Positions 1 to 21,139 of a stretch of DNA of 24,067 nt are shown piece after piece. Within the stretch, counting starts at the first letter, position 1, and each line of letters opens with the position of its first letter. The DNA is from a virus: positions 1 to 24,067 of the IMG/VR virus record IMGVR_UViG_3300020056_000167; one strand, 5' to 3'. A model generated the notes under the pieces. That model saw nothing but the letters and a program-made list of their open reading frames with translations, was not told where the DNA came from and did not search any database. Made by a program: the position numbers and the translations under genes.

Positions 1-1725
1 TATACCAGTAGTGAGTTCTACTGTTCGTATGCCAGAACCTGCAGTTGAAGAACCATATGCGACGAGACCATCAAATACTACGAGTTCACGTTCAGCAATA
101 CCACTAATTGAGCCAGGAACTGATTGTGGTAAATCAGTAAATGTACTTGTAATGATACGTTCAGGGAAACTAGATACAGATGAAACTGTCGATACAAGTG
201 ATGTAGATTCAGATACAACAGTTCGAATACCAGAACCAGAAGTCGATGCAGCTGTAATAAGATTTGCAGATACAGCAGGAATTCTACGTGTACCATCACC
301 AACTACTGCATCATCCGCTACGAGATCACCAAATCCTGTAATCGATGTAATTCGTCTTATACCTACACCGCTGACACTCGGTATAGTTGTAGTAGTATCG
401 CCACTACCAGGTATAATTCTTTCGGCAATACCAGTAGTAGTTGCCGAAGTAGTTAGATTTGTTGATGTCGATACTATTGTTCGCTCAGCAATACCGCTAG
501 TCGAAGCTGAAGTTACTAATCCAGTTGATGTTGATACGACTGTTCTAATACCGCTGCCGTTTGTGCTAGCACCAACAGCTACGAGCGAATCAGTTCCGAC
601 AACTTCTCGTTCACCAGTACCGACGGTAGAATTACCAGCAACAAGATCACCAAATCCGGATATAGATGTTATAGTTCTTTCACCTACACCTGTCACGGAT
701 GCTGACGTCACTAAACTCGTCGATGTCGATACAATAGTTCGTTCTGCAATACCTGCAGTTGAAGCTGTTGTGACTAAACCTGCCGATGTAGAAACAACAG
801 TTCGAATACCGCTACCACTCGTACTAGCGCCAACAGCGACAAGCGAGTCTGTGCCCGGAACTTGACGTTCACTAATACCTGATACACTACTATTATTTTG
901 TGGTAGAGTTGTAGATGTACTCTTAACAATTCTTTCAGCAACACCAGCTGTACTAGAATTAATCGCTATGAGAGATGTAGATGTAGATACGATCGTTCTT
1001 TCAGCAATACCACTAGTGCTAGAATTAACAGCAACTACATTTGCTGATGTAACAACTTTACGTGTAGCATCACCAAGAACTGAATTACCAGATACAAGAT
1101 CTCCTGTACCTGTAGCAATAATTGTTCTTGTACCTGCGCCTGTTACAGTTGCAGATGTGGTAAGATTTGCCGACGTAGATACAACTGTTCGTTCGCCAAC
1201 ACCTGCAGTACTACCATTTGAAACAGCAAGAGAAATAGATGTTGTAATTTCTCTTTCAGCAGTACCTGAAACTACAGATCCGACAGCAACAAGCGAGCCT
1301 GTGCTAGTAAGCTCACGTTCGAGTGTAGAGGATATTAATGAATTGGCAGATACAAGAGAAGTAGATGTCGATACTATTGTACGTTCAGCGACACCACTTA
1401 CAGAGCTATTAACTGCTACAAGACCGGCAGATGTAACAACCTTACGTGTTGCATCTCCTAGTACGGAATTGCCAGATACGAGATCACCCGTACCCGTTGC
1501 GATGATTGATCTTTCGCCGACACCAGATGTAGAACCATCTGTAGAAGTAAGAGATACGCTACTTGTAATTACACGTTCTGCAATACCAGTAACTGCAGTA
1601 CCGGCACAGACAACGGTACCAGTTCCGGGTAGTTGTCTTTCTGGAGATGTGGTAACTGAGCAATCGTCAGCTACGAGATTTGTATTAACACTGAATACTG
1701 TTCTAGCACTAGAGCCAGATACAGC
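1..1725 (-). repeat. About 27 degenerate tandem repeats of ~63 bp (~21 aa)
   Basis: Each unit carries an (IVG)-x-(EIT)-R core spaced about 21 residues from the next. Some units are nearly identical: GDLVSGNSVLGDATRKVV occurs twice, about 128 residues apart, and related GFGDLVA units recur further on. This points to a higher-order period of about six units. Synonymous codon differences between copies show that the protein, not only the DNA, has been kept. Confidence 0.8.
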
Positions 1726-1845
1726 ACTATTAGTAATACCAAGAACACCAGCAGTGACTTCTTCGTATTTAATTACATAGGCGATATCTACGTAATTATT
1801 ACTGCCAGGTGGTGTTCCATCAACTACATAAACTATTCTAGCCAT
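1..1845 (-). CDS. Repeat-rich virion-type protein, 3' end beyond the window
   Basis: Codon-by-codon reading of the minus strand from the ATG at 1845 stays open for 615 codons to base 1, so the gene is cut by the window edge. GGGTG lies 5 nt before the ATG. The N-terminus (MARIVYVVDG, about 40 residues) is not repetitive. From about residue 41 the protein is a run of roughly 27 tandem units of 20-23 residues with the consensus G-(IV)-(AG)-E-R-T-I-V-S-T-S-T-S-L-V-x-x-x-S-S-T-S. It is almost wholly Ser, Thr, Val, Gly and Ala with one regular Arg and often Glu per unit; Cys occurs only near the start. Regular short beta-rich units suggest a beta-solenoid or stacked-hairpin fibre. Its place after the tail-fibre cluster suggests a virion surface or adhesin role. 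I do not recognise the family; the function is inference. Confidence 0.8.
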   Translation of the reverse strand, partial: MARIVYVVDGTPPGSNNYVDIAYVIKYEEVTAGVLGITNSAVSGSSARTVFSVNTNLVADDCSVTTSPERQLPGTGTVVCAGTAVTGIAERVITSSVSLTSTDGSTSGVGERSIIATGTGDLVSGNSVLGDATRKVVTSAGLVAVNSSVSGVAERTIVSTSTSLVSANSLISSTLERELTSTGSLVAVGSVVSGTAEREITTSISLAVSNGSTAGVGERTVVSTSANLTTSATVTGAGTRTIIATGTGDLVSGNSVLGDATRKVVTSANVVAVNSSTSGIAERTIVSTSTSLIAINSSTAGVAERIVKSTSTTLPQNNSSVSGISERQVPGTDSLVAVGASTSGSGIRTVVSTSAGLVTTASTAGIAERTIVSTSTSLVTSASVTGVGERTITSISGFGDLVAGNSTVGTGEREVVGTDSLVAVGASTNGSGIRTVVSTSTGLVTSASTSGIAERTIVSTSTNLTTSATTTGIAERIIPGSGDTTTTIPSVSGVGIRRITSITGFGDLVADDAVVGDGTRRIPAVSANLITAASTSGSGIRTVVSESTSLVSTVSSVSSFPERIITSTFTDLPQSVPGSISGIAERELVVFDGLVAYGSSTAGSGIRTVELTTGI

Positions 1846-1954: not shown

Positions 1955-2386
1955 TTAATTCGGCGCAGTATAAGTCAGAGAGCTGACAGAGATTGTATCA
2001 CCAGTACCGATGTTCACAGACGAAAGCTGAATTGAACCCGTTCCGGTGTCGTCATCAGTAACGTCACCAGTAAAGATTGTATTGCCATTCGAATCTTGTA
2101 CTTCGAAGTACGTTACTGTTGATGAGTCACCAGATGACCAACCATTTCCAGGTGCCAATGTGTTAGTATCAGCTGTGATAGCAGCGGCCGTCGCGACTCC
2201 ATTTGCTGAAGCACCAAATGCAGTACTACTAAAAGTCAATTCTGCAATAACAGCATTTCCTCCAGCATGTACAGTACCTGTATCATAAAAAATAAGTTTT
2301 CCTGCTGCGCCGCCTGCGTCAATACGATCGACAACGGTATCAGCTATTAGATTCCGGACGTCGTCTGGATGTTCTAGTGTTGCCAT
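1955..2386 (-). CDS. Small beta-rich virion-type protein (143 aa)
   Basis: I chose the ATG at 2386 (MATLEHPDDV) because AGGAG lies 9 nt upstream. An in-frame GTG two codons earlier would sit only 3 nt after that Shine-Dalgarno sequence. The protein has a short charged N-terminus with a predicted helix (HPDDVRNLIADTVVDRIDAG). It then becomes Gly, Thr, Ser and Ala rich with alternating beta-type segments, ending in SLTYTAPN. No catalytic motif or signal peptide is visible. Its size, composition and place after the fibre genes fit a small structural or decoration protein. It lies downstream of a late promoter and is followed by hairpins, so it may form its own transcript. The family was not recognised. 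Confidence 0.75.
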   Translation of the reverse strand: MATLEHPDDVRNLIADTVVDRIDAGGAAGKLIFYDTGTVHAGGNAVIAELTFSSTAFGASANGVATAAAITADTNTLAPGNGWSSGDSSTVTYFEVQDSNGNTIFTGDVTDDDTGTGSIQLSSVNIGTGDTISVSSLTYTAPN

Positions 2387-2513
2387 TAGCACTTTCTCCT
2401 TGAGTTTCTTTTTTTGAATCTTTCGATGTCAATCTTAATTTTTGTATGGTACCATCTGCGCGTTTAATTTCTATAACACCAGATATACCAGATTTATGTT
2501 CATCGTCTTTCAT
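2340..2513 (-). CDS. Possible micro-protein (57 aa) overlapping the next gene
   Basis: An ATG at 2513 opens a 57-codon frame ending in TGA at 2340, overlapping the first 47 nt of the 143-aa gene in another frame. The first 35 residues look like a real protein: a beta-like stretch GVIEIKRADGTIQKLRLTSK followed by a Lys/Ser/Glu tail. The overlapping part (Arg, Asn, Ser rich) looks dictated by the other frame. A weak GGATAG precedes the ATG. It fills the only otherwise empty gap of this size (about 160 nt). The perfect late promoter just upstream would place the transcript start only a few bases before this ATG, so translation may depend on read-through transcripts. It could also be only the leader of the next gene. 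Confidence 0.4.
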   Translation of the reverse strand: MKDDEHKSGISGVIEIKRADGTIQKLRLTSKDSKKETQGESANGNTRTSRRRPESNS

Positions 2514-2547: not shown

Positions 2548-3651
2548 CTATTGCCAGCCACCTTCTGGTCCAACTCTAAATAAATCCCCTTCGCCTGGAA
2601 TACCACTTTGCGCATCCCACCAAATATGCTGAGGACCAGGAAAGTTTACTAAATTCATAACGTCTGGTCGATAGTTTTCTGGCCAAACAATATCATACGA
2701 ATCTAAATCGTCCCGACCATTCCATTGTACCTCTACTTTTGGCAGGGTATAATCGTGCATCTTTCCTTCATTGTCATATTGTTCATATTTATTTCCTAAT
2801 TTTCGCAGCCATTCTTCCCATCCTCTATTACCAACTCTATTTTGAGCGTCAGCACATATACCTTCAACTCGAGTATCGTATACGTAAGTTGGATAACGAT
2901 CAGTTAAAACCTTCATTGATAGATTACCTTGTACGTGCTCATGTTTGAGAATAAAATATTGCAGTGTATCTTCACCAATCTTATGAGCATTATCAAATCG
3001 ATGTGCTGCCGCGGCTTTAGAATAAAATACTACACGACAATGTGATTCCCAATTATTGATATAACGATATGCATACTGCGCCCATTTTGTGTGAGCTTGA
3101 GATAATTGTACAGCAAAATCATTTCCTTCAGGCGTTGGAATAAGGTTGCCATTAATTGCCTTCTGCCAAAAATCTTGTTTTAAAATGAAACAACGACAAG
3201 GAAATCCATGTATTTGATCATGGTCAAACTGATCGCTTGAGCCTACTCGAGGATTATAGTGATGTGGATTTAAATATCCCCAATCTGCATATATTCCATA
3301 TTGATATTCGATCGCGACAACATCGGGACATGTATTTGATTGCGCTAATTGTTTATATGTCCATACACCATGCGGTGTAATAAAATCGTCACCATCTACT
3401 AACACCATATAATCATTGTCTGATGATGTGAATATGTCTAAAACGCTGTTTTTACCTGTAGCTGGTGTGCCGTCAGATGTTGTAACTGAATATGCGATAT
3501 TAGCACTTGTTGCATAGTCTATAGCGGAATTGACGTATGCTTCATCAGTACTATTAAAGACGAAGTGAATATCTTCTTTTGGAATGGTCTGCTCGTGTCT
3601 TTTTGTAGCCTTTAGATTAGAACTACAAAGCACATAGAATTTAACACTCAT
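2548..3651 (-). CDS. GT2-like glycosyltransferase (GT-A fold), 367 aa
   Basis: The N-terminal half shows the layout of family-2 glycosyltransferases. A beta-strand start (MSVKFYVLCSS) is followed by a GKNSVLDIF helix at about 67-74 and then YMVLVDGDDF at 81-90, whose DGDD (86-89) fits the metal and nucleotide-sugar binding DxD motif. IGEDTLQ around 225-231 could hold the catalytic acidic residue. The C-terminal third is rich in Trp, Tyr and Asp and unassigned. There is no signal peptide or TM segment, so action is cytoplasmic. The start lies 1 nt after the stop of the tail-assembly chaperone gene, so translation is probably coupled. Position inside a tail-fibre operon suggests it glycosylates a virion protein; the target is inference. 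The donor sugar cannot be told from sequence. Confidence 0.65.
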   Translation of the reverse strand: MSVKFYVLCSSNLKATKRHEQTIPKEDIHFVFNSTDEAYVNSAIDYATSANIAYSVTTSDGTPATGKNSVLDIFTSSDNDYMVLVDGDDFITPHGVWTYKQLAQSNTCPDVVAIEYQYGIYADWGYLNPHHYNPRVGSSDQFDHDQIHGFPCRCFILKQDFWQKAINGNLIPTPEGNDFAVQLSQAHTKWAQYAYRYINNWESHCRVVFYSKAAAAHRFDNAHKIGEDTLQYFILKHEHVQGNLSMKVLTDRYPTYVYDTRVEGICADAQNRVGNRGWEEWLRKLGNKYEQYDNEGKMHDYTLPKVEVQWNGRDDLDSYDIVWPENYRPDVMNLVNFPGPQHIWWDAQSGIPGEGDLFRVGPEGGWQ

Positions 3652-8648: not shown

Positions 8649-9118
8649 TAGGGAATAACCTCGATTGTATTGACAACTGCTGTCCAGTTAACTGTTTTAC
8701 TCGTTGCTCCAGTGCAATATATATTGAGTGTATCATTTGTGTCATCAGCTCGTATATCAACCGACCAATTTAAATCATCAGCGGCAACCGCAATCTCGTA
8801 AATATCTCCAACGTCGTCTGTTGTACCGTTATGATTATCGGCGCAACCTTTTAAATGCCATGATGCACTTTCTCCATTTGAACATGCAACAATCGAAGCC
8901 TCAAAGAAAAGAGTAGAATTGGCCGTCACTGGAACACGACCAGTAGAACTGTGGATCAGATAAATTTCTGTCTCTGTACCATTCGTTGTTTGACCATGAG
9001 CCACGTAGCGATTCATCTGGTAACTGTCAGTACCATGTACAAACGAATTGGCAACCGCGACGTTAGTCAGATTAACATCGTTACCAAATGAGTTGCCTGT
9101 GAGTTTAGTGATTGCCAC
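8648..9118 (-). CDS. Small virion-type protein (156 aa) before fibre D
   Basis: It starts with GTG at 9118, with AGGA 7 nt upstream. The stop overlaps the fibre D start as TAATG. The N-terminus (MAITKLTGNSFGNDVNLTNV) resembles short attachment segments of phage structural proteins. The body is beta-rich with two Cys pairs (ACSN/GCADN and IYC) and acidic patches (ADNHNGTTDDVGD, DIRADDTND). No enzyme motif, signal peptide or TM segment is visible. The tight coupling to fibre D suggests a trimeric collar, adaptor or tip partner for that fibre; this is inference. Confidence 0.65.
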   Translation of the reverse strand: MAITKLTGNSFGNDVNLTNVAVANSFVHGTDSYQMNRYVAHGQTTNGTETEIYLIHSSTGRVPVTANSTLFFEASIVACSNGESASWHLKGCADNHNGTTDDVGDIYEIAVAADDLNWSVDIRADDTNDTLNIYCTGATSKTVNWTAVVNTIEVIP

Positions 9119-9127
9119 TGTTTATTC

Positions 9128-9325
9128 CTATGCTGTGTTTGCTTCGGGTGGAATAGGAGGTACAAAAGTTTCTTCTTCGTCTTGAGGAATATTATTTCCA
9201 GTTGCTTCCCATTCACTACCGTTGAATTGGAATTCATAATTTTGTAACCATGCTATATCTCCAGTATTTGCTTCTGGAAAAATAAACGTATTCATCTGTA
9301 TTGTTAAATCATCTATATTCGACAT
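9128..9325 (-). CDS. Small partner protein (65 aa) between fibres C and D
   Basis: The ATG at 9325 lies 2 nt after the fibre C stop, with AGGA 11 nt upstream. The protein is acidic, with WLQNYEFQFNGSEWEATGNN in the middle, then a Glu/Pro stretch (QDEEETFVPPIPPE), ending in EANTA. No domain was recognised. The stop context TAGGAATAAACA is the same as after fibre B. It sits where the other small partner genes sit, between two large fibres. Confidence 0.6.
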   Translation of the reverse strand: MSNIDDLTIQMNTFIFPEANTGDIAWLQNYEFQFNGSEWEATGNNIPQDEEETFVPPIPPEANTA

Positions 9326-9327
9326 AA

Positions 9328-12300
9328 TTAATAATATCCTGTAGCCGAAGAATGCTGCGCGGTAGCTGTTACTCTTCTTTCTCTAAAATCATAACCGCCC
9401 CATTGATCCCAATCTATAATAATTTGGCAATATGCTGCTAGCATATATGCTACCAAAACAACGTAACCGTCACTCGAAACATACGAACTCTGCGTTATAC
9501 TCCATCCTGTGTCGTTGTGCACAGTTTGATTGGGTAAAGAACCATTCCAATTGTGCCAACCAACCATGCCGCTACCAACTGCATTTGACCCAGTGTAACA
9601 ATATCCTCTATATCTAAAGAGAGACATTGTATATTCAGTATTACCAGTCGGCGAGCCACCGGCCCATAAGTTGGTTTTCATATGTAAATATGAAGCTGAA
9701 TTACTATATGGGCCTGAATAAGTAAACCATCCTAAAATACATCTTGGTTCAGAACTCGAATGCGATCCTTGTGTCCTGCCATGTATTAATGGGCCGAATG
9801 TTTGTGTAACAACTCCTGAACTTGTTACGCCAGTTTTTACACTATTTGTTCCAACTGCAAAATGTCCTGTTCCGTCCCCACCTATAAAAGATGTAGTGTT
9901 TGAAGTACCTCTAATTGCAACTGGTGTTGAAAGACCAGGATAACTAGAGTTATATTCATTACTGGTAAAAGTTCCTACGTATAGATTATTTTTAAAAAAA
10001 CCATATGGATTAGTACCATCAGAAAGTAACATATTAATTGATTTAACGCCACTAGAACTGTTACGATGCCCGAAAGCCCAAAAATAACCACTTCCATCTG
10101 ACTCCCACGAATCCACTCTGTAATAAGGATATTGCACAGGCATTTGGTCGGAGCCAATCCATATTGATGAATAATTACCGTCATCGGTTAATTTAAATCC
10201 TCCAGCTGAAGTCACATCAAGTAATTTAGAAGGTGCTGCGGTGCCAATTCCTACACTACCGTCACTTTTAATTGTGAATCGTGTAGCATCAGAGCCCCCG
10301 CTCGGATGACAATTAATATACATGTGCCCATCATTATAAGAATAGAATGTCCAACTTGATGCACCAGTATTATTTAATTCTAAATGTTCTGTATTTCCAG
10401 CAAACGAGGTTCTTATAGGTTTATAAGAAGTAAAACCTGAACTATTATGAAATTGAGCTACTTGTGTAGGAGTAAATGCACCGTCGTATGTTAATGATTG
10501 CGCTGCATCTGCAAATAAGTTAATAACACCATATGACAATTCCATTGCTGAGGGTGCCCATGTACCTGTATATGCCCCCAAATAACCGTTATTTGTTGTT
10601 TGTGAACCTTTTAAAGCTTGACCAAAAGTTAAACGCCCTCCATTTCGCGAAGTCCATATATTACCAAGCGATCGAGTAGAACTGCTATGCCAACTAATTT
10701 GTGTACTACCTGAAGAGTCTGCGCCCAAATCTAATGTACTGCGCGGAGACCTAGTACCAATACCCAAATTGCCAGAAGAGGTCAACGCTAATCGATATTG
10801 TGATGTTGGTGCATCAGCATAAAATTCTAATCCATTAGATGTAGAACCCATTTGCCAACTGCCATTTGTATCGGCAAGTTGAATCCAACCGCCACTAGAA
10901 CCGCTTGCAAATCTAGATATAATACCAGAAGTTGGAACAAGTCTATAGACTTCTAAAGGATATGAGGGAGACTGATCACCAATCCCCACGTTGCCGTCAT
11001 TGCGAACTGTAAAAAGCTCGGTTGTATTATTATGTACACTAAATATCGATACGTCTGCAACGCCAGTGCCTCTACCAGTCGCCTGTACTTTTAACGCTAC
11101 ACCTTCAGTTACGTTCGGTCCGCTATTGTTTATATAAACAGTGGGAGTCGAGCCCGTGTCTTTGTTAACGGTTAAAATACTAGAAGGACTCGAATTTCCA
11201 ATACCAACTCTACCAACGCTATCGATAACAATATTATGATCTGTATGATTCGTCCAAAAATGCATACGATCGTTAGCATGTCTATATTCGATAATTCCTT
11301 GATACGTGGCTGATCCAGTATTTGAATCGGCAAAATATAAACTTGTTCTTGCTGTGTTATCTGTAGTTGCAATAGTAATTCCAGCATTCGAATCATCTTC
11401 AACAACTAAATTATCTGCGTAGCTATTGTAAGCACTAGTCGTACCAATTTGTACTCTGCCGGCACTATCGATACGCATACGTTCTGAGCCGTTTGTATGC
11501 GCATGAAGGAAATTGCTAGTTTTGTTACCTCCCCAGAGATTTCCACCATAACCCGTTGTATCGCCTATAGACCAATAAGCCGTATCTGTATACAAATAAG
11601 CATCTATAGACCCGCTATGTCCAGAAAACCTAACTGGATTAAAACTAGAAGCAATTGCTTGTATATCTAGGGTATAAGATGGAGTAATGCCAATACCAAC
11701 TCTTCCTTCTTCGTCGATCCGCATCCGTTCATTAGAAACGCCTGTACTATCAGTATGGAAAGTTAAATAAGTGTTTGCTGATGTTCCGATCGCTGTGTGA
11801 GTGCTAGCGCTATATGCAAAGAAATCCCAATCATTTGTGCCGCTATCGCGACCCATCAATAATTGTCCACCAGTGGTACTTCTGATATTCAGCGTACTAT
11901 AATTGTTCGATAAAAATGGATCAAAACCCATGCCCACATTATTAGCTACAAAGTTAGCGAGGGTAAATGTATTAGCTGATCTGTCGATAGTAGAAGGAGG
12001 CGTGGCAGTGTCGAATGCATCTTCTTCGTAACCATTAAACAAATAATAGTATTCGTTGCTGGCGTCTCTGAAGAATCCTGTGTGAAGTGCAGTAGTCCCA
12101 CCATCATTTGAATAGTGACCTACAAAACCGATATCGATTGTGTCTGAAATCTCGTTATTAGTAGCGAGCTGAATGAGCGAGTCTTCAACTTTTAATTCGT
12201 TAGCGGCAATGGTAGTTGTATTACCATTGACGATAAAGTCGCCGCCAATTGTCAAGTCATTTACAATAGTGACATCATCGGGCAATCGAGCGAGAGGAAT

Positions 12301-20524: not shown

Positions 20525-21139
20525 TCAGACCGGAACAAAATTAATACCAGCGACTAATCTATCCTCGTCAACCGTGGTTTCCATTACCTCGTGAGCTAAC
20601 CATGAAGAAAACAAATATGCTTTACTTGGTATTGGCTTTCTTTGTGCATTTGTACGCCACAATTTATCGCGATCACCAGTTCTTGTGTATTCGTTTCCTA
20701 TTCCAAACCACGCGGTAGATTCTACGGCGTGTGCATCACTTCTAATAAAATTAATTGGACCAGTATTATCAGAAGTTTTAATATAATATACTCCAGAAAA
20801 CAAAGCTCCTGGATGAGTATGTATTGAATTTAAACCACCTCTTGAACTATAGTTTAGCCAAGAATTAGATATTTGCATAGTCAAGTTTATATTAAAAACA
20901 TTTTTAAAAATATGATTAACTGCATATAACACTTTACTCATGGCGTCATCATAATCAGGACACATACCTTCTTTCATATCAAACTGCCAACCGCCTAAAT
21001 TTGATCTATGTACACCTTTGTGTTTTTTAATTGTTTCTTGAAAAAAATCGAATATATTTGAATTATTTACTTCTGGAACATCAACATCAAATATACTTTC
21101 AACAAAAATGTCATGTCTTTTAATTGACATATCCATCAT
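20525..21139 (-). CDS. 2OG-Fe(II) oxygenase-like protein (204 aa)
   Basis: Residues 105-120 read SIHTHPGALFSGVYYI, and 181-200 contain LAHEVMETTVDEDRLVAGIN. In the phage 2OG-Fe(II) oxygenase family these give the iron ligands and the 2-oxoglutarate-binding Arg. Here the candidates are His107 or His109, His183 and Arg194. The usual acidic ligand is not plain in HTHPG, as in related phage proteins. It is cytoplasmic with no signal. The start overlaps the previous stop as ATGA, with AGGA 11 nt upstream. The substrate is unknown. Related genes are common in T4-like marine phages, often beside structural genes. Confidence 0.75.
   Translation of the reverse strand: MMDMSIKRHDIFVESIFDVDVPEVNNSNIFDFFQETIKKHKGVHRSNLGGWQFDMKEGMCPDYDDAMSKVLYAVNHIFKNVFNINLTMQISNSWLNYSSRGGLNSIHTHPGALFSGVYYIKTSDNTGPINFIRSDAHAVESTAWFGIGNEYTRTGDRDKLWRTNAQRKPIPSKAYLFSSWLAHEVMETTVDEDRLVAGINFVPV

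Follow-up and report, generated by a model that had tools for sequence, protein, structure and literature searches.

In phage T4 the gene at the slot 5′ of gp13 is wac, and its product, fibritin, is a trimeric alpha-helical coiled coil. The tail of Agrobacterium phage 7-7-1 provides a second point of reference: 36 homodimers of the garland protein, gp014, surround the distal baseplate of this phage and touch both the short and the long tail fibers, and its capsid carries long flexible fibers formed by proteins that are still unknown (PMC12796354). Here we describe a locus of uncultured marine phages in which a gene for a highly repetitive protein sits directly 5′ of gp13 and is itself preceded by a gene whose product is a homolog of the garland protein. 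The window, by which we mean the whole stretch of DNA analyzed, comprises all 24,067 nucleotides of the IMG/VR record IMGVR_UViG_3300020056_000167. The repeat protein encoded at its edge represents the first half of a long fiber-like protein present in single copy, and we suggest below that this protein probably belongs to the virion.

Results

A truncated gene for a long repeat protein

An earlier note on this DNA described a minus-strand frame that is open for 615 codons to the window edge and is nearly all repeat, and our analysis confirms it (Table 1). Because the window is the entire record, the gene is truncated by the contig end. The missing C-terminus, which the note had proposed to find by extending the contig, is present on contigs L002 to L004, where the complete gene encodes 1145 aa. 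Of the 1845 bases in the window copy, 5 differ from L002, and two further complete alleles, L005 and L006, encode 1119 and 1121 aa. The protein is rich in Ser, Thr, Gly, and Val. The note had counted 27 units of about 21 residues; the repeat is real and 21 is the commonest unit length, and the count of complete units is now 26, with individual units of up to 24 residues. Units terminate in Arg, most commonly as (G/A)-E-R, and within the 21-residue units of the window Gly17 and Arg21 are the only invariant positions. The observation that residues are kept while codons vary also stands: pN/pS between the window and its orthologs is 0.15–0.18 over the first 300 codons, and the gene is under purifying selection.

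Two long antisense frames lie opposite the array, probably as a by-product of its codon pattern. They are what might be said for regarding the periodic frame as low-complexity noise or a noncoding repeat, a notion so improbable that we set it aside, given the low pN/pS among orthologs, the complete genes with start and stop codons on several contigs, and the conservation of both the N-terminus and the synteny.

Table 1. Positions of the features discussed; coordinates refer to the window unless a locus is named
Feature	Position	Strand	Basis or remark
Repeat-fiber gene, 5′ part (615 codons)	1..1845	-	ATG start, open to window edge
N-terminal segment, residues 1-48	1702..1845	-	Motif IYVxDG..YVExGYVxK; six columns invariant among 14 aligned members
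Repeat array, residues 49-607, 26 units of 21-24 aa	25..1701	-	Pattern roughly (T/E)(I/V)xSTSxxLVxxxSxxSGxGER
Example of four-unit block: units 14-17 (residues 328-413), then counterparts 18-21 (414-497)	355..864	-	Unit-pair similarity
Source of six-unit impression: units 4-6 (residues 113-177) and 10-12 (241-305), 128 residues apart	931..1509	-	Unit-pair similarity
Antisense open frames	11-865; 968-1780	+	Opposite the repeat array
Partner gene, 145 aa, phrog_3758, homolog of garland protein gp014	1955..2392	-	Profile match to 9rkv
Gene for 367-aa protein	2548-3651	-	Just upstream of the garland gene
2OG-Fe(II) oxygenase gene	20525-21139	-	phrog_81; tail-fiber region
Cupredoxin-like module, ~100 aa	L002:8545-8838; L030:4280-4591; L037:5083-5391 (also L040, L042)		Three different array positions
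gp15 homolog with extra C-terminal stretch	L002:10981-12090		
Garland-type paralogs gp014 and gp012, phage 7-7-1	L107:8001-8426; 8948-9379		
Protein with 21-residue period, RHph_N46	L106:10958-13066		C-terminal half

A recurrent block of four units

Near-identical units about 128 residues apart had been read as a six-unit super-period, as if six coils made one larger turn. Self-identity of the window protein, scored against shuffled sequence, is high at lags of 21 residues (z = 10.7), 86 (15.5), 107 (14.5), and 128 (10.9). With permuted unit order as the null, lags of four and five units each give z = 2.4, and a lag of six gives z = 1.6. The 128-residue spacing rests mainly on the resemblance of units 4–6 to units 10–12, and the pairs 4/10 and 5/11 do rank near the top for similarity within the window; so do the pairs 14/18, 15/19, and 16/20, which are four units apart. 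Across the family, lag 4 is the highest of lags 1–7 in 12 of 16 members, with z as great as 6.2 and a lag-8 harmonic in most, a consistency that overstates the number of separate observations since the members are partly non-independent. When the 867 units of 18 members are pooled, the excess in column identity reaches 1.08 for lag 4 and 0.69 for lag 8, as compared with −0.05 to 0.34 for the other lags. On this evidence we reject the six-unit super-period in favor of four units.

The same spacing can be followed along single proteins and between alleles. Units of the SALGTGER type occupy positions 10, 18, 26, 30, 34, 42, 50, and 58 of L048, spaced by multiples of four, until the phase is lost near the C-terminus. 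Between the L002 protein and its close alleles L005 and L006 there is a clean indel whose length is exactly four units, and the indels between L048 and L026 come in steps of 3, 1, 4, and 12 units, among smaller ones. Taken with the lag-4 statistics, the unit phase and the indels point to a recurrent module of four units, or approximately 86 residues; it may be a structural unit or only a unit of recombination.

Gene context

Related loci were collected with the downstream neck gene, gp13, as a hook, and the homologs that the earlier note had hoped to find near the fiber clusters of marine myoviruses were located by this means within the T4-like structural module. Where gp13 is 82% or more identical and the upstream ORF could be read, the ORF directly 5′ of gp13 encodes a repeat protein of this kind in nearly all loci. 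L062 (83% identity in gp13) is an exception, with a different ORF in this slot, so that at its distance the association does not always hold, and more distant phages carry unrelated proteins there. On the gp13 tree two changes suffice to explain which loci have the repeat gene, whereas shuffled labels require 18, a clustering to which near-copies add. Since gp13, gp14, gp15, gp16, and gp17 follow the repeat gene and gp23 lies on the same contig, the phage is a T4-like myovirus; the nearest cultured gp13 sequences are those of Stenotrophomonas phage DLP6 (64%), Caulobacter phage Cr30 (53%), and Sinorhizobium phages such as phiM12 (50%). Upstream of the repeat gene the window carries tail-fiber and tail-fiber-assembly genes.

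Three other genes were noted in passing. The tail-fiber region includes a 2OG-Fe(II) oxygenase gene, and genes of this type also flank gp13 in pelagiphage HTVC008M. The gp15 homolog of L002 has an extra C-terminal stretch (approximately residues 255–340) matching many PHROGs virion proteins and baseplate wedges, and this stretch is probably a shared decorating domain. The 367-aa protein encoded just upstream of the garland gene looks like a glycosyltransferase by eye only (YMVLVDGDDFITPHG stretch) and has no significant match in Pfam, PHROG, or NCBIfam; homologs occur in six gp13 loci (L019, L027, L029, L030, L034, and L046), and the protein might modify the Ser/Thr-rich fiber.

The garland-type partner

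In 17 of 17 testable loci the repeat gene is preceded, at a distance of approximately 100 bp, by a partner gene encoding 133–145 aa, and no match to it was found in loci that lack the repeat gene. A partner profile built without 7-7-1 or the rhizobial phages matches PDB entry 9rkv with E = 1.5e-9, positions 1–129 aligning with 1–139 of the chain. That entry is a 141-aa "Structural protein" whose chain sequence is that of 7-7-1 gp014, and by this match the partner is a full-length homolog of the solved garland protein. The homology provides the strongest, though indirect, support for a tail or baseplate role of the repeat protein. The gene after gp014 in 7-7-1 encodes a different protein of 165 aa, and no such repeat fiber lies beside gp014. 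Phage 7-7-1 has two garland-type paralogs, gp014 and gp012, the second of which is followed by gp011, annotated as a virion structural protein.

Family members, N-terminus, and Vibrio relatives

So far the family consists of uncultured T4-like marine phages and a diverged form in four sequenced Vibrio phages. Its repeat proteins are 882–1613 aa long and contain 28–71 units by a simple split. A search of two ~160-kb genomes with the motif of the N-terminal segment gave a single strong match in each, and this segment is the likely virion anchor; its alignment offered no stretch conserved enough for a scan of the collections. C-termini differ between sub-clades.

Searches of Pfam, PHROG, and PDB sequences gave no match to the repeats, the exception outside the inserted module described below being one phrog_677 stretch in L002 that spans repeats and module. 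The full-length L002 protein, the sole member compared with NCBIfam, had no match there, and the Peptidase_S74 C-terminal chaperone domain was not matched in the full-length repeat protein; a neighboring gene has one. Searching 50,697 cultured-phage records by tblastn with the window protein, L048, and the L048 N-terminus gave no match, and low-complexity masking probably hides the repeats from this program. Nor was a relative found in a search of one genome per bacterial or archaeal species. Given that the collections consist of contig fragments, that records very near the window were possibly excluded, and that masking limits tblastn, these negative results do not establish that cultured phages and genomes lack the protein. 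A literature search on tandem-repeat and beta-solenoid tail fibers found no paper. The results from the libraries searched support a new family of repetitive phage fiber, and to that extent the "new class" of the earlier note holds; its alternative of a surface coat has gained no evidence.

It was through the partner gene that Vibrio phages 501E54-1 and K354/K406/K408 were reached, which repeat searches alone had not done. Directly after the 124-aa garland homolog in 501E54-1 (OX241455.1) and in K354/K406/K408 (OZ196403.1 and others) comes a hypothetical protein of 583 or 669 aa. The proteins of 501E54-1 and K354 have a 21-residue period (z = 9.4 in 501E54-1), and a triple-unit profile of the family scores them at 25.5 and 18.0 bits, respectively, as compared with a maximum of 2.4 bits for 50 shuffles of 501E54-1 and −16.5 and −27.4 bits for the reversed sequences. 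Judged by period and profile, they are diverged relatives of the family. We do not claim the same of Rhizobium phage RHph_N46, in which the C-terminal half of a protein encoded two genes after the garland homolog has a 21-residue period (z = 5.6) but a profile score of −2.4 bits; both that protein and the product of the intervening gene are annotated as WD40/YVTN repeat-like.

An optional cupredoxin-like module

Some arrays are interrupted by a cupredoxin-like module, which is absent at the L002 position from L005, L006, and L024. The module also ends cyanophage gp9 and sits within a collagen-like protein of P-SSM2; being common to known fiber-type proteins, it supports the reading of the repeat protein as a virion fiber. 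His46, Cys92, His95, and Met98 are invariant in an alignment of seven sequences (His...Cys-x2-His-x2-Met), a ligand spacing that we take to resemble that of amicyanin. Profile searches gave weak matches, to a copper nitrite reductase at E = 0.003 and, with one member, to PF00127 at E = 0.022; the module may bind copper. No paper was found in a literature search on cupredoxin domains in cyanophages.

Membership of the repeat protein in phrog_677, the gp9 family, was considered. The L002 protein matches this profile with E = 7e-17 over a stretch, 266–947, that takes in both repeats and module; in L037 it is limited to the module region (271–410 of the 412 profile positions), and the part of the protein in the window has no match. 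We have not adopted the assignment, because the L037 match is confined to the module region and S-SM1 gp9 has no repeats.

Fold of the shaft

The structure prediction called for in the earlier note was run for the monomer. AlphaFold2 models of window residues 1–327 (pLDDT 57.8, pTM 0.55) and of 12 clean L048 units (pLDDT 66.7, pTM 0.59) are all beta and solenoid-like. The latter is a continuous regular stack in which, over most of the model, each unit has a short strand and a long one that spans the SGxGER-EIT boundary. In both, the input alignment had as its rows copies of the same repeats offset from one another, and this could tilt the result toward a regular stack. No coiled coil was predicted in these models. 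Foldseek found no PDB match for either model at E < 0.001, and the best matches, mostly beta-helices or solenoids, had probabilities of 0.13 or less. Two matches to viral models at E < 0.001, from Tetraselmis virus, had a TM-score of 0.16 and were judged meaningless.

For repeat sequences, beta-solenoids are reported to be over-predicted by AlphaFold2 (PMC11795689), and because of this tendency and the low pLDDT of 58–67 we treat the solenoid fold as tentative. Of the beta-solenoid fiber originally suggested, the fiber is supported and the models are all-beta and solenoid-like, while the solenoid itself is weakly indicated. A different architecture is quite conceivable, if somewhat doubtful: the shaft could be a homotrimeric fiber (a triple beta-spiral or beta-prism-like), or each block of approximately 86 aa could be a separate eight-stranded domain, the whole resembling beads on a string. 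In size such a block is comparable to a small beta-sandwich domain; the clean four-unit indel between L002 and L005/L006 and the indels between L048 and L026 would suit this arrangement, as would the persistently low confidence of the monomer models and the unit Arg, which should share a strand face with the conserved V/G/G/I, an awkward position for a simple solenoid core. Against it, AlphaFold2 renders the cleanest array as an unbroken stack of long and short strands over most of its length, and most of the top Foldseek matches are beta-helices or solenoids. This alternative concerns the fold only and is compatible with a fiber.

Discussion

It seems likely that the repeat protein is a long fibrous virion protein with an N-terminal anchor, a shaft of beta-repeats, a distal C-terminus, and a garland partner, serving most likely as an adhesion or adsorption fiber of the baseplate and possibly of the neck. 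Incorporation into the virion as a fiber is supported by the gp13 synteny, the garland partner, the Vibrio relatives, the upstream tail-fiber genes, and the occurrence of the module in cyanophage gp9 and P-SSM2. The original proposal of a long repetitive phage fiber selected at the protein level thus draws support from gene context, purifying selection, the conserved N-terminus, and the partner. Two facts weigh against placing the fiber at the baseplate. The slot 5′ of gp13 resembles that of wac, a neck gene, not a baseplate gene, and contact between a garland and fibers is known in 7-7-1 alone, a phage in which gp014 has no repeat fiber beside it.

The first of these facts, together with the single copy found in the two ~160-kb genomes searched, would suit a neck whisker, that is, a non-homologous all-beta replacement of fibritin that possibly aids tail-fiber attachment or senses the environment. 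We consider a whisker unlikely: the partner is homologous to a protein located at the 7-7-1 baseplate, no coiled coil is predicted, and the K354 cassette lies several kilobases from an annotated neck gene. A capsid fiber tethering the particle to host filaments or surfaces is less probable still. Phage 7-7-1 has long flexible capsid fibers of unassigned proteins (PMC12796354), for which an extended repeat protein would be suitable, but no capsid gene adjoins the repeat gene, the garland partner corresponds to a baseplate protein in 7-7-1, and tblastn with repeat-array members of the family listed no Agrobacterium phage, the repeat not being found in 7-7-1.

We favor the tail-associated fiber. 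Its conserved N-terminal segment, about 30–45 residues, would anchor the protein to the particle, and the 28–71 tandem 21-residue beta-repeats would form an extended shaft. Repeats would be gained or lost mostly as four-unit blocks, the number of blocks setting the length of the shaft. The C-terminus, variable between sub-clades, should be distal and, with the spliced-in modules, would meet the host or the surroundings. The garland-type protein could pack on or beside the fiber, and the two would act together in adhesion or adsorption, most likely at the baseplate and possibly at the neck. More speculatively, the beta module of ~86 residues could be a previously undescribed fiber building block that lengthens by four units and serves as a track for garland-type dimers, with cupredoxin-like host-surface modules spliced in at differing positions; we put this forward as a tentative idea.

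Pfam and PHROGs do not recognize this fiber-protein family of marine T4-like phages (for NCBIfam, one member was searched), and the family is tied to a structurally solved baseplate garland protein. The isolated Vibrio phages with relatives offer systems in which location and function can be tested. The natural series, which runs from 28 to 71 units and mostly steps by four-unit blocks, bears on how phage fibers change length, and the array is a natural test case for the over-prediction of beta-solenoids.

Comparison with known systems

Like fibritin, the repeat protein is an elongated structural protein, by our reading, and its gene occupies the position immediately 5′ of gp13 within a T4-like structural module. 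It differs from the alpha-helical coiled coil of fibritin in being predicted all-beta, with no helix in either AlphaFold2 model, and no fibritin model is present among its Pfam and PHROG matches. The gross geometry of the AlphaFold2 model is similar to that of curli CsgA (8c50), HxuA (4i84), and the Antarctic beta-helical antifreeze protein (3p4g), proteins that have no sequence relation to the repeats and match with Foldseek E-values of 0.02 or worse and probabilities of at most 0.07.

Among phage proteins, the Prochlorococcus phage P-SSM2 tail fiber-like protein PSSM2_028 contains the cupredoxin-like module (59% identity) inside a repetitive fiber-like protein, although its repeats are collagen-like G-x-y and not 21-residue beta units. 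Cyanophage gp9, the "baseplate wedge tail fiber connector" (phrog_677), likewise comes from marine T4-like phages and shares the module of ~100 aa; S-SM1 gp9 differs in having no 21-residue repeats. The Vibrio phage proteins, at 583–669 aa, differ from the family in that no GER motif and no YVExGYV N-terminus were seen. K354 carries a tail sheath gene, but the PHROGs matched by its tail sheath and neck genes are not the ones matched in the T4-like relatives, and its repeat/garland cassette does not adjoin gp13. What the Vibrio proteins have in common with the family is the 21-residue period, the profile score, and the place directly downstream of a garland homolog.
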